From positions 25,164,617 through 25,228,616 of the forward strand of contig JAJEKV010000002.1 of assembly GCA_021234155.1 (NCBI GenBank): a stretch of 64,000 nucleotides of DNA. Direction: 5' to 3'. The notes under the pieces were generated by a model, which saw only the letters and a program-made list of their open reading frames with translations, was not told the origin of the DNA and did not search any database. Both the position numbers and the translations under genes were made by a program. The DNA is from Isoetes taiwanensis (lineage: Eukaryota; Streptophyta; Lycopodiopsida; Isoetales; Isoetaceae). Positions 31,210-59,582 of this stretch are shown here, piece by piece. Numbering within the stretch: position 1 is the stretch's first letter; each line of letters begins with the position of its first letter.

Positions 31210-31354
31210 TAATTTTTTAAGGAAAGTCGTTTATAGATATTATTTTCAACATTTTCTTCTACCGTGACAATAACTTCAATTGCTTGGAGGTCCTTATTTA
31301 GCAGCTTCTTTCTCAAACAATGTAGGGGCCCCCCTGGACGTAAAAATAATACTA
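31210..31354 (+). mobile_element. tiny 3' scrap of the (CT)n-associated LINE
   Basis: The last codons before the 3' UTR resemble the family's RE..KNYK..L segment. They are followed by a GGGGCCCCCC stem-like stretch, GGACGTAAAAATAATAC and then (CT)n at 31355, the same order as the other copies. Confidence 0.5.
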
Positions 31355-31491
31355 TCTCTCTCTCTCTCTCTCTCTCCTCCCTCCCTCTCCCTCCCTCTCC
31401 TCCCTCCCTCCCTCCCTCCCTCCCTCTCTCTCTCTCTCTCTCTGTTCTCTCTCTCTCTCTCTCTCTCTCTCTCTCTCTCTCTCTCTCTCTC
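31355..31491. repeat. (CT)n / (CCCT)n microsatellite
   Basis: A CT tract with CCT/CCCT interruptions at about 31376-31425. It follows a LINE 3' end, like the other tracts in this region. Confidence 0.95.
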
Positions 31492-31494
31492 AAG

Positions 31495-31528
31495 TGTCAA
31501 GTGTGTGTCCTCGGGCACACACTTGACA
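31495..31528. repeat. perfect 13-bp-stem hairpin beside (CT)n
   Basis: TGTCAAGTGTGTG (31495-31507) is exactly complementary to CACACACTTGACA (31516-31528), with an 8-base loop. Confidence 0.9.
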
Positions 31529-31589
31529 TGTGTATATACATTGATGTATACTTAGATCTTTGACATTGATGTATCTTATGCGGTTTTGT

Positions 31590-54459: not shown

Positions 54460-55101
54460 TTCGTCAGTAAGTGGGGGAATGGTGCTAGAAGCTATGCCAC
54501 CGCAGGAGATTTGTTAAGGGAATGGGTCTACGACATATCGAGAAAAAATCTTGGCATAATGCAATCTTAAAATGGCATTTTACAAAAAGAAATTAACTCC
54601 AAAGACTTCGGTGAAGCACCGGGGACTCTGGGTAAGCCGCCTTTACTTTAAAAGACATTTGTTGTGCAAACTAAGATTAAGTTCACATCATTCGGGGAGT
54701 GGAGGTTGGTAGATGGGGGTAAATCTAAAACTTACCGCATTTAAAACATGTGGAGCTGATGTATCGAAGATGAGGCACACCTTTATTCTTCACCGTCTCC
54801 GGTGATACGCAACTTAAGGAGAAGGATGGGTATTCCCACCGATCTCTTTTATATGAGTCTGGCCATACCGGCCAAGCAAATTTAACTATCATCGGGCGGA
54901 TTCACTTTGATGAGGTGATGAAAGCGAGAGCATTACGTCAATAAGAAAGTTCATAAAACACCTACTAGAATTCAGGCGAAAGAGTATCACTGATGCCCTT
55001 TTATTGAGGGTACATTAGAGTTTTAATTATATGCAAAAAACCGATTTTGTATATCATCTTCTAGACCGGATGGTCTCATAGACGACCTATAAAACATTCC
55101 A
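54460..55101 (+). mobile_element. LINE 3' end, copy I
   Basis: Matches 50960-51600 of copy F over its whole length, including the finger region and a stem-loop (AGACCGGATGGTCT at about 55065-55078, outer AGACG at about 55080), but with many small insertions and deletions. Either a sister copy or the same sequence assembled twice. Confidence 0.65.
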
Positions 55102-55148
55102 TCTCTCTCTCTCCCCTCTCTCTCTCTCTCTCTCTCTCTCTCTCTCTC
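55102..55148. repeat. (CT)n microsatellite between LINE copies I and H
   Basis: About 47 bp of TC repeat with one CCCC interruption. Confidence 0.95.
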
Positions 55149-58100
55149 GATCGTACTGGACTTAGGGTTTCGGGCCGGCCGTAACTTCGGTGCCGGCGGC
55201 TCTCGCGATACCTGCGGTCGACAACGGAAGTTGGGCTCATGGAAAGTTTATTTCGGAAATTTTCCAACGTGTATAACATCAATACTTTTGATCAGTTTGG
55301 CAGTCCTGTAATTGGCATTTTCCGGACTGTACGTGATGCAATGCGTAGTAGTGGACAAAATGGCAAAAAAGAAACCCGGATCAGAGATGGGATCAAGTAA
55401 AACAAAAAGAGGTGGAACCGAGGGATGTTACCTACCATCATCGACTCAAAAATGAACAGTGGGGAGCTGAAGTATCAAGAAAACAGTGGAACCGGGTCTT
55501 TTCCTTACGCACGGCAAGCCCGTAGAAAACCGAGTGCAAAGGACTGGGCAAGATCTCCTGATGCCGCGGGCTGATGAGGGCAACCATGGAATTTCAACTT
55601 CGCTCTTAAGTGAAGACATCAATGGAGGCCTTCGGCCCAAACATGGTAAGGATTGAAATTTCTTTATAGCTCATGTGCAAGGTGGCGGAGAAACGTCACA
55701 TAAATATGATAATGGAATTAGGAGCGCAGCCTCAAGAAGGGGATTAAAGTAATTTGAAGCTTTCTGCTAAGCAGGCTCTTTGAGGAAGATAGTGATTGCG
55801 AAGATGATGGTATTATTGCGAAGAAAAGGACATCTCCGAATCCGTGCCACCATCGCCTTTATAGAAGAGCAAGAAAGGGAGAGAAAGTACTGAACATCCG
55901 CTTGATTGGCATACCTAATGCACTGGTGAAAGACCAAAGACATTGTTCAGCGCTTATGAAACGAATCAAGCAAGTGATAGATTCGTGCATTACAGATGCA
56001 TTTCTCGATTGGCAAGCAACCGATAGTGGATCGGCCACATTATTGTCAAATCTCGCATCAAAGGAAGACAAGATTAATATAATCAAAAAGAAGACTATGC
56101 TCAAGGAAAATGAAAGATTCGATCAATGATGATCTTACTTCAGAACCAAGAGTACAAGGAATAGGTGCAGCATCCTCAAGGAAGCATAAAAGTGGAAAAA
56201 GCTGCATCGCATCGAAGGTCATGGTGGAAAATCCGAAAATGCATAGGTATTTGATGACCCACCAGTAGATAAATGTTGGAACATAAATTTATTAGTCAAA
56301 AGATAAAATAGATGTAGTAGGATGATCTATTTTCAAACGTAGATGTTTTGTTCTTCTTAGAAACTTCTGTGAAATGAAGAAAAAAGGTTTACCGTGACAT
56401 TACATGGTTTATTAATCGTTGCACTTCGCTTTAGTACAATAAAGGCCGGCTCTCTTAAAAGGACATGGCGGATTCTGTACATGTAATAGTCGTGCATGAA
56501 ACACCCGTGAAAAATAATGAATGAAAGAGGATCATCGCAAAGATATCCGGGTGGAGTTGGCTAAGGCCGTAAAGGTAAGATCTTGTATGGATGTTACTGA
56601 GACACCATTTATGCATCTCGTAATTCACCGGATCTTTGATGACCCCTTTTTAGCTTTCTAGAACGATGTGCTTTCATTGTCACGCATGCATGCCCTCTAT
56701 TAGAGATTTCAATCCAGCGATTGTTACCAAAACAAGCAACGCATCGCTAGCATGGAAGGATCCTGGGAGGTCGAGGATGCTTTACTTTACAAGGAAGTAT
56801 CCCGTGAATGGATGAGCAGAACTACTACAGATAGAATAAGATGGCCTACACCCCAAGGCAAACTATGTGCTTAATATGTGCAAATGCGTTTGGATTTTAT
56901 TGGTTTATAATGGCACACAAAGGTTTCCGTGCATTGCAAGTGCACATGCGTAAATGCTTGTTGATCTCGCTCTTGCTACATCCCAGCTTCTGCGTGCATC
57001 GTGTAAGTTACATGTCTATAGGGAAGAGATGGAAAAGATCTCGCATCATACACCGATAATACTTGTGTTAAGCACTAAGAATTACATTATTTTTCACCGC
57101 ACTGTGTCTCTAAGCCTCGCGATAATGTGATGAAATATCATAAAGTGGAAAGCTATATGAAGAGGCGGAGGCAAGAGCCTCCACAACAAATTGGCCCATT
57201 AATCGGCGCAAATTATGACAAGATTGCAGAAGAATTTAGATAAGCGCACCGATTGTTTTATCCCCAGAAAAGATGAAAGGACGCTTAACAGTTGGTTATT
57301 TCGATGCGCCTTGTAGAGCAAAAGCATCATTTAAGGCAAGGGAGAAGACAGATTAAAGAAAAGAATATTTTGCACTCACTTTAAATCAAAAAGAAAAAGT
57401 ATGTATATCGAGACAAAGCAGAGTCGATCCGCGACACTACAGCGCATCCCAAAAATTTCGAATGAGCTTTAAGCCTAAGATGAAGCAGACTCCACTGAAA
57501 CCATGGCTTATTAAGCCGCCGCCGTAGTCGTATCACATGCCTGAGGCCAACGCCGTAATATTGACTTGCTGCGATGTAGGTCGGTGTTTTCTGATCTGAA
57601 GACTTAGAAGAAGGGTTAAGTCATCTTGCCAACGGAAAGTTTTACCGATTCAATCTGGCTTAGCCGAAATGTTCAAATAAGGTGTAACTCATAATACATG
57701 CCGTGATTGTTGTCATTATTTAACAATATGCAAAGGGTTTCCTCGCGACTTCGCAAATAACGTGAAGCATCCCTGCATAAAGCCGAGATGAGAATGATCC
57801 CGAAAATTCATCAACGATTCCGGGTTAGTAGCCTATATGCCAAATTATTTGGCCGCTAGCGTCAATTAAAAACGAGCAACCGGGCTTGAAAACATAATGT
57901 TAGGTCAATCGATGCGTGCTTTAGACCAAAAAGATCTACTGATCATTTGGTTACTTTGGCGAGCCGCGCTTTATCCGGGTTAAGGGTAAGAAAAAACCTC
58001 TTTATGCTCTTTTTGTTGATTATGCTAAGGCATTTTGACACTTTATTCTGTGAGTAATTTGTGTGTGGAGAGGATGGAGGCCCTAGGGGTACCCAATTGA

Positions 58101-59552
58101 GCTTAGACATGCAGTTGAAGATACTTTATGATAAAGTTTTGGTAATGTGCCTATCATCCCCCATATACTCAGCAAATGCGCAGCATGTGGTAGGAAAGTA
58201 ATATTGAGTGAAGCTAAGGTGCCCATTGTCGCCACCATTTGGCCTATTCATAGACCAATTGCGCTTGATGTCCGAATATATGGAGGGGACCCCATTGTTT
58301 AGATGCATGGCCCCTTTCGTTGCCTATGGCGCTTCATGATAAGTGTTCTTCTTCCCGCCTGCTGAAGGTACGCAATACGATACTTCGTGGAACGTAGTAT
58401 GAGGGTAAATATGTCAAAGACTAAGATGATGCATTTGGGAGCTAAAATAAAAGCAGATCATCTTAAATTCTATCATGGATAACCGGTGAAATTGTCAATT
58501 CTCAGCTATAAGCATTCAGGGATTGCCATGCACGGGCGCGCATCGGAACCTCCGCTGATGTTGTATAAATGGAGCACCATATAGCATGCGCGAAAGCGGA
58601 AAAGCAATATGGACTTTAGCCCCGAAGCCATACTCCAGCGCCGGTCCAAACGCTTTGCTCTATGGGTGTAGCTTATAAATGGATTATCAGAGAGAATCCC
58701 GGAAAAAGTTGAGGAAAGCGTAATATTCTTGAACGGTAATTGGGGCACGTTAAAGCCCAAACCCATATGATATATCGCTGTAGAGTGGCATGATGCCACC
58801 AGAGGCTGAAGCCCTCGCAACGCTACATATCTCGAAGTTGCTATTTCCGATGCCTAAGATATTTTGGCCAAGGCGAAGCACAGCTGTTCAGTTATAGTCG
58901 CGACAAAATCGATATTAGGTGGAAAATGATGAGGAAGTGGGGATGAATATCCCGTATGGAGAATAAGTGCTAACGAAGAGGAGTGGCATGAGCACTCATT
59001 AAGAAGCCTATATATCCCTAGACAAAAACATTTCTATAGGATGATATAATCCCACTTCGGCGAGGCCAAATACCCTTGCTGAAGGTGTGGCTCCTTTACG
59101 ATGATGATGCTGTGATGCGCCAGCCCCATAGGCTTGTGCCGAAGCGATTTCGAGCAATATTCCCACGACAATTGAGATTTTGCAGCGCGCAATATGGGGA
59201 GGTGCTGAAGATACAATCATGTCATCGTGAAGGTCTGGCCATACTCTCGTGGATTCCCAGATAAGTACAATATCCATTCAAACTCTTTGGTCGAATCTTG
59301 GCGCGCCCAACACTCCATTTGGGGTACCGGAAGGAAATATTGATACGCAGATAAACGTTAATGAGTATTCCAAGATCAGAATGTTATACATGATGAGAGA
59401 TGAAGAGCCCTAACGCGTAACTGCCGCGGAAGATGATTATATATAATCTTTTATAACGTTGAATATGTGACATTGATCGCTCCCCATAGACCCGTGGTCT
59501 TGCTGTGACGTAATAAATACCATTTTGCCTTCATTTCACGCATTTCTCCTCC
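55149..59552 (+). mobile_element. LINE copy H, near full span but riddled with indels
   Basis: ORF1 RRM-like half at about 55880-56130 (IGIPNALVKD, ASKEDKINIIKKK, INDDLT-like), endonuclease at about 56280-57200, RT at about 57620-58500, C-terminus at about 58500-59420 and an ATAGACCCGTGGTC stem-loop near 59492. The order and span (4.4 kb) match copy E, yet no frame stays open for more than about 100 codons. Confidence 0.65.
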
Positions 59553-59582
59553 CTTCCTCCTCCCTCCCTCCTCCCTCTCCTC
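59553..59582. repeat. degenerate (CCT/CCCT)n tract
   Basis: Pyrimidine tract between copies H and J, in the position where the other junctions have (CT)n. Confidence 0.7.

Follow-up and report, generated by a model that had tools for sequence, protein, structure and literature searches.

LINEs that very probably target TC microsatellites, and their SINE-like companions, in the quillwort Isoetes taiwanensis

We analysed a 64,000 nucleotide stretch of the Isoetes taiwanensis genome (assembly GCA_021234155.1, contig JAJEKV010000002.1, positions 25,164,617 to 25,228,616 of the forward strand; hereafter the window), which carries a head-to-tail array of long interspersed elements (LINEs) joined by (TC)n microsatellites. 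The array very probably reflects an old clade of LINEs whose target-primed insertion favours (TC)n/(GA)n microsatellites and one orientation. The elements share a 3′ hairpin and many have TC at both ends, with a bias for one strand. Neighbouring copies lie on the same strand, elements resembling short interspersed elements (SINEs) occupy TC tracts as well, and the TC-associated copies fall in one clade.

Array features were located with Tandem Repeats Finder (TRF), self-comparison and tblastn with the intact 1105-aa open reading frame (ORF) of copy E. Ten LINE copies were counted (A, B, C, D, E, FG, H, I, J and K), all on the + strand and head to tail, from about 31.3 kb to the window end. A first-pass annotation of the same DNA had described at least nine same-strand copies of a single family. 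The common strand stands, but the protein pieces are 30-65% identical to copy E (tblastn). Thus, the array holds a clade of LINEs, and a single family is ruled out. The junctions were said to be (CT)n and are mostly TC tracts by TRF, but the 3′ end of copy H lacks TC. The 5′ end lies at a TC tract in eight of the ten copies, by homology in B, C, D, E, FG and H and by position only in J and K. The annotation had B through G start after CT, which agrees with this except that F and G are one element, FG, whose reading frame is lost near 46645 and returns near 49513, with an insert of about 2.9 kb between. The 3′ ends are visible for nine copies, as K runs out of the window. Those of A to E pass directly into 99-187 bp of TC, as had been read, and that of J into a degenerate CT stretch. 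Short tracts had been noted after I and H; I has one, of 47 bp, but H has none. The CT reported about 190 bp beyond F also proved correct: beyond the FG 3′ end come about 15 bp of CT, then a SINE-like element of 189 bp and, after it, TC. TRF found no TC dinucleotide tracts in the first 31 kb of the window, where there is an imperfect pyrimidine run of 41 bp at 17064. The features of the array, with those of a sister lineage termed family II, are as follows.

18810-18848, - strand: family II LINE
25900-30600, - strand: family II LINE
31000-31170, + strand: family II LINE
31355-31491, + strand: TC tract, first of the array (TRF); a SINE B-like 3′ end lies just upstream, at 31337-31354
31492-31735, + strand: family II LINE 3′ end, tail without TC (read from the sequence, hairpin aligned; left limit approximate)
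31736-34899, + strand: LINE copy A, 5′-truncated (ORF2 from about aa 80), starting within the family II tail, with its 3′ hairpin at 34838-34870
34902-35015, + strand: TC tract (TRF)
35016-36401, + strand: LINE copy B, 5′-truncated (about aa 663), TC flush at both sides
36402-36547, + strand: TC tract (TRF)
36548-36896, + strand: LINE copy C, final 350 bp only, TC at both sides
36897-37083 (TRF 36900-37082), + strand: TC tract (TRF, self-comparison)
37084-40021, + strand: LINE copy D, 5′-truncated (about aa 157), tail (TTATC)n (homology)
40022-40173, + strand: TC tract (TRF)
40174-44535, + strand: LINE copy E, seemingly of full length, with a (TCT)9 tail (ORFs, homology, domains)
40246-41109, + strand: ORF1 region of copy E, with a single in-frame TAG at 40729-40731 (ORF reading)
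41113-44430, + strand: copy E ORF2 of 1105 aa, with an APE endonuclease and a reverse transcriptase (ORF, Pfam domains)
44466-44500, + strand: 3′ hairpin of copy E (alignment, folding)
44536-44634, + strand: TC tract (TRF)
44635-46648, + strand: LINE copy FG, part 1, ORF1 starting flush with TC (homology)
46649-49512, no strand assigned: insert splitting copy FG (self-comparison; limits by eye)
49513-51634, + strand: LINE copy FG, part 2, short CT after the tail (homology)
51646-51834, + strand: SINE-like element, 3′ end resembling SINE B (sequence match)
51827-51872, + strand: TC tract (TRF)
51873-53750, + strand: LINE copy H, 5′-truncated, 3′ end without TC (matches copy J; right limit approximate)
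54467-55101, + strand: LINE copy I, last part only, 5′ end away from TC (homology)
55102-55148, + strand: TC tract (TRF)
55149-59542, + strand: LINE copy J, degraded (homology; 5′ limit by position only)
59543-59582 (TRF 59546-59582), + strand: degenerate CT stretch (TRF, self-comparison)
59583-64000, + strand: LINE copy K, cut by the window end (homology; 5′ limit by position only)

The pattern extends across the genome (1,658,258,908 bases in 1110 sequences searched). The hairpin core TAGACCTGATGGTCT has 929 copies, and its reversed control has two. A perfect (CT)6 lies 15-45 bp from 249 of the 459 forward-strand cores, and (GA)6 was found at the same distance from none of the 929. The forward count is taken as one per site, judging from the matches listed; the reverse-strand figure (1392) counts one site repeatedly and was not used. 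The first 100 cores listed fall on dozens of contigs, with more than 20 places on contig C907. Two samples of loci were read. One comprised 41 copies (protein-match ranks 2-21 and 24-44 of 150 listed, from 20558 candidates). The 3′ end was recognised in 39 of these, doubtfully in L018, and 35 of the 39 have a pyrimidine run of at least 20. A perfect (CT)n of at least 12 bp occurs in 26 of the 35; some of the runs (L017, L025, L052) are not TC but TCT or TTTC tails. The other sample held 40 cores (the first 20 listed plus 20 from C907), with at least 20 pyrimidines in 26, a perfect CT of at least 12 bp in 19 and a 20-purine run in none. The copies lie mostly in the repeat with the strand fixed, as is typical of microsatellite-specific LINEs. 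Several tracts downstream of elements continue as (CA)n, forming compound microsatellites (L026, L030, L045, L054, L060, L065, L117).

These results bear on the central proposal of the first-pass annotation, a site-specific LINE in (TC)n. The fixed-strand TC at 3′ ends and the TC before many 5′ ends sustain it, but for a clade and not for one family. The tabulation of flanks that it recommended came out in its favour, in the core counts and in both samples, and most sampled copies with a 3′ end do not end in ordinary sequence. Its argument that chance would not yield such an array is also upheld: the first 31 kb lack TC tracts by TRF, and perfect (CT)15 tracts make up at most 0.45% of the genome, even with each match counted as a separate tract.

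At the 5′ side, truncated copies begin within about 7 bp of a pyrimidine tract and at varied points of ORF2. This was seen in copies B and C of the window and, among the 10-kb loci, in L018, L019, L020, L027, L031, L034 and L035 (twice). In L018, L025 and L029 the upstream TC is preceded by no recognised LINE or SINE. Matches that are neighbours within 20 kb agree in strand in 8/8 and 10/10 pairs in two lists, which have one C907 place in common and the second of which includes the window. The same-to-opposite counts are 9/0 and 11/1 within 50 kb, and 10/4 and 12/4 within 200 kb.

The LINE 3′ ends have in common a hairpin (CGTCT..AGACC-TGAT-GGTCT..AGACG). An A-rich stretch comes next, followed by a few units ending in TC (ATTTC, ACTTC, TTATC, TCT or TTC, TTTC, ATTC) and then, usually, (TC)n. 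We aligned 31 ends, three of them of family II type. The ten pairs of the hairpin form in 87.6% of alignment cells, versus 25-42% with the partners slid; two-sided changes affect 14 cells, compared with 5.0 in shuffles. When six ends were folded singly, 0, 9, 0, 2 and 0 of 200 shuffles folded as well as the five ends of the TC clade, and 43 of 200 as well as the family II end. A conserved 3′ hairpin with compensatory changes, the trait of stringent-type LINEs, is thus present.

The 1105-aa ORF of copy E matches PF03372 (26.9 bits, cut-off 24.5) and PF00078 (113.4 bits, cut-off 29.6). The elements are non-LTR (long terminal repeat) retrotransposons with an apurinic/apyrimidinic (APE) endonuclease and a reverse transcriptase in one ORF. 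They show the LINE hallmark of starts at many ORF2 positions and a constant 3′ hairpin end. A profile built from 15 ORF2 relatives found human L1 ORF2p best (172 bits; R2 147), and its endonuclease part ranked the L1 endonuclease (L1-EN) ahead of TRAS1. A search with a single ORF2 protein placed R2 (87 bits) ahead of L1 (63-64). The LINEs are likely, but putative, members of the L1 group. For ORF1, searches of Pfam and PDB yielded nothing firm; Transposase_22 was sub-threshold in copy E (E 0.11) and absent from the ORF1 of copy FG. Related proteins carry names including Taxus, Riccia and Adiantum.

In a tree of the C-terminal region with 60 rows, the TC-associated copies are united in a single 38-row group with support of 100/99. 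Thirteen rows are unlabelled and six are labelled nonTC. For four of the six (window_25956m, L021_9415m, L023_1912m and L032_7232p) the label means that no CT-bearing hairpin was seen nearby; it does not stand for a 3′ end read as free of TC. One copy that lacks TC, L022_5004p, sits within the TC clade. Family II lies outside the TC group, beside proteins of other sources. It has a similar hairpin and different tails, e.g., (TTTTACATTC)n, and none of its four 3′ ends in the window (18.8, 29.6, 31.1 and 31.7 kb, the first placed by hairpin only) has TC; its description as TC-less refers to these four.

Short elements without a long ORF occupy the same TC tracts. SINE A (178 bp, from L020) gave 298 first-look candidates in the genome, of which 40 were scored. 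We sampled 20 copies (ranks 2-21), two of which, L119 and L126, are duplicates of each other. At least 12 pyrimidines stand upstream in 14, downstream in 18 and on both sides in 13; in several CT-flanked copies (e.g., L113, L114, L118, L125, L129) the sequence beyond is unrelated by eye. In L021 a 25-bp SINE 3′ piece is flush with TC at both sides; L036 has a piece of 22 bp preceded by TC. In the 40-core sample, the TC of a LINE leads directly into a SINE-like element in L088 and L094 (BLAST) and in L077 (by eye). The SINE 3′ end, GACGTAAAAATA or GACGTTAAAA, resembles the LINE 3′ end GACGTTAATAAAA. The SINE-like elements probably share the LINE machinery and would be mobilised by a LINE of the TC clade. 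A tRNA origin of the SINE heads found no support: ARAGORN reported no tRNA and Rfam no related family, and the motifs resembling A and B boxes were seen by eye only.

Some other sequences adjoin the tracts. In L029, positions 4926-5330, a head with tRNA-like boxes (by eye) is joined to an E-family LINE end after a short TC tract, a possible SINE/LINE chimera. A CACATGC repeat, GGCCACATGC in several cases, borders TC tracts in L025, L029, L044, L058, L093 and near 51646 of the window. It occurs in both orientations and therefore stands outside the strand rule; it is perhaps a small DNA transposon. The insert in copy FG contains 173-bp repeats (47164-47336 and 49338-49510) that are 99% identical, a putative 5-bp target duplication, ACAAC, seen by eye, and a minus-strand stop-to-stop frame of 194 aa (48713-49297). 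It is perhaps a small LTR element. From 51500 to 64000 the LINE copies differ from those in the first half of the array by their many small indels and odd GC-rich insertions, and this stretch looks like an unpolished or gap-filled part of a Nanopore assembly.

We propose that the element protein would recognise its own RNA by the conserved 3′ hairpin and that its endonuclease would nick the (GA)n strand of a TC microsatellite. The free ...GA-3′ end would pair with the terminal UC of the RNA and prime reverse transcription, and slippage could yield the short tail units ending in TC (TTATC, ATTTC, ACTTC, TTC, TTTC). The far end, often 5′-truncated, would be joined to TC on the opposite side, and TC would be kept on both sides of every insertion. 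Since TC is left on both sides, later copies could land in older tails in the same orientation and build head-to-tail arrays. SINE-like elements with a similar 3′ end use this target as well.

A number of observations weigh against so simple a target preference. No (CT)6 was in range of 210 of the 459 forward cores, and 14 of the 40 sampled cores lack a run of 20 pyrimidines. The 3′ side has a short tract or another element in L060, L063, L068, L071, L073, L087 and L094, and five copies look plainly off target (L066, L079 and L080 of the 40-core sample, L022 and L052 of the 41-copy sample). Starts away from TC occur in L023, L024, L030, L031 (first copy) and L033, and in the window in copies A, which begins within the tail of a different LINE, and I, which begins in other sequence. 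Among 12 genomic windows aimed at the 5′ ends of long-frame copies, a CT tract of at least 16 is present in five (L100, L101, L102, L107, L108). Three of the seven without one lie inside another LINE by eye; as the starts were not located independently, the seven may be misses or TC-less starts. This result lowered our confidence in the preference slightly. Two tracts found by TC alone gave one adjoining LINE (L001) and one with none recognised (L099). Target-site duplications are unreadable within TC. In the hairpin, five pairs have two-sided change versus 3.4 in shuffles, within the shuffle range (74/500).

The elements might instead carry or make the TC themselves, as an RNA tail or by slippage during insertion, and copies would then seem targeted by landing in older tails. 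This is improbable, but it has points in its favour. With their TC ends, the LINE tail units could act as seeds for a tract, and many upstream tracts are tails of other LINEs. Six of the 20 SINE A copies also count against our reading, since they have no run of 12 pyrimidines upstream (L119/L126; L123, in an ATCT repeat; L124; L130; L131), yet 10-27 pyrimidines follow their 3′ ends; part of the TC may therefore come with the RNA. As a pure product of the elements, however, the TC was rejected. Thirteen SINE A copies have CT on both sides, with unrelated sequence beyond by eye, and the upstream TC of L018, L025 and L029 has no recognised LINE or SINE to account for it. The CT found at either end of LINEs and SINE-like elements, in several cases with unrelated sequence farther out, argues for a tract older than the insertion. 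The off-target LINEs (L022, L052, L066, L079, L080) end in tail units without TC, so TC is not simply part of the LINE RNA. The target might also be set not by the endonuclease but by pairing of the RNA 3′ end with (GA)n at any nick. We consider this unlikely, though less so than TC made by the elements. The tail units end in TC with TC following, and SINE-like elements of different bodies have the same target, but family II tails also end in TC (ATTC) and the family II ends in the window are outside TC. Pairing as an aid to insertion is compatible with this.

Two further explanations concern the array itself. Its head-to-tail layout on a single strand is what tandem or segmental duplication of one LINE-TC unit would give. 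We rejected this, and its chance is negligible, because the copies are divergent (30-65% protein identity to E), their 5′ truncations and tail units differ and the same junction is found on many contigs. An assembly artefact, in which TC repeats join unrelated LINE-bearing reads, has only a very slight chance. The assembly (1658.30 Mb, 204 scaffolds and 909 contigs) was built from Nanopore reads, polished with short reads and gap-filled (PMC8566536), and small indels abound in the second half of the array. Yet the pattern recurs in most sampled loci, and its recurrence on many contigs excludes misassembly of one array. The strict strand rule (GA at 0 of 929 cores) is also unlike random joining, and misassembly as a general cause was rejected on both grounds. 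Preferential insertion of a LINE clade into TC microsatellites is thus the reading that we retain.

A wider reading is put forward tentatively, as one that we judge possible but somewhat short of even odds. LINE families and SINE-like elements may share and maintain one microsatellite target in a land plant, creating their own landing sites. As parts of the same tentative proposal, insertions perhaps lengthen the TC, the elements may explain a large share of the genome's long TC microsatellites, and the preference may go back to a single origin and have persisted as the proteins drifted apart to about half identity. LINEs that aim at a site reveal what steers target-primed reverse transcription, and they are under study as tools for gene insertion. 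The quillwort offers a natural comparison (diverged TC families, a sister lineage without the target in the copies seen, an RNA hairpin and SINE-like companions) for asking which part of the protein or RNA picks the site. It also offers a concrete origin for one class of microsatellite arrays. No LINE targeting TC was reported from any land plant in the literature searched, in which subscription papers were largely beyond reach.

Microsatellite-specific LINEs are already known, in Togen and, reportedly, in Kibi and Koshi, and so are nested LINE arrays, in Zepp. Kojima and Fujiwara are said to have described in 2004 the fish LINEs Kibi and Koshi, of the Tx1 group, in TC / TTC repeats. These reportedly resemble the quillwort LINEs in being of APE type, in a TC microsatellite and in fixed orientation; the quillwort LINEs differ in their plant host, in forming a clade of diverged families and in their SINE-like companions.

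Togen comprises (TG)n-specific fish LINEs described as relatives of NeSL, whose clade has a restriction-like endonuclease (PMC4640811). Togen and the quillwort LINEs share a dinucleotide microsatellite as target; the quillwort LINEs differ in having an APE endonuclease and in using TC. Zepp and Zepp-like LINEs of green algae form tandem arrays of 5′-truncated copies nested in existing copies, with one cluster per chromosome in Zepp, probably at the centromere (PMC3446292, PMC8226300). In this they are like the quillwort LINEs, which also belong to the green lineage and nest truncated copies in tandem arrays; unlike Zepp, the quillwort LINEs occupy many places, not one cluster per chromosome, and have TC as the common junction. 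Plant L1 LINEs are reported to have a stringent 3′ hairpin with compensatory changes, associated SINEs and mostly poly(A) tails (PMC3747384). The quillwort LINEs resemble stringent plant L1s in their conserved 3′ hairpin and in having companions, here SINE-like elements, and differ from plant L1s in having short tails that end in TC instead of poly(A), and a TC target.

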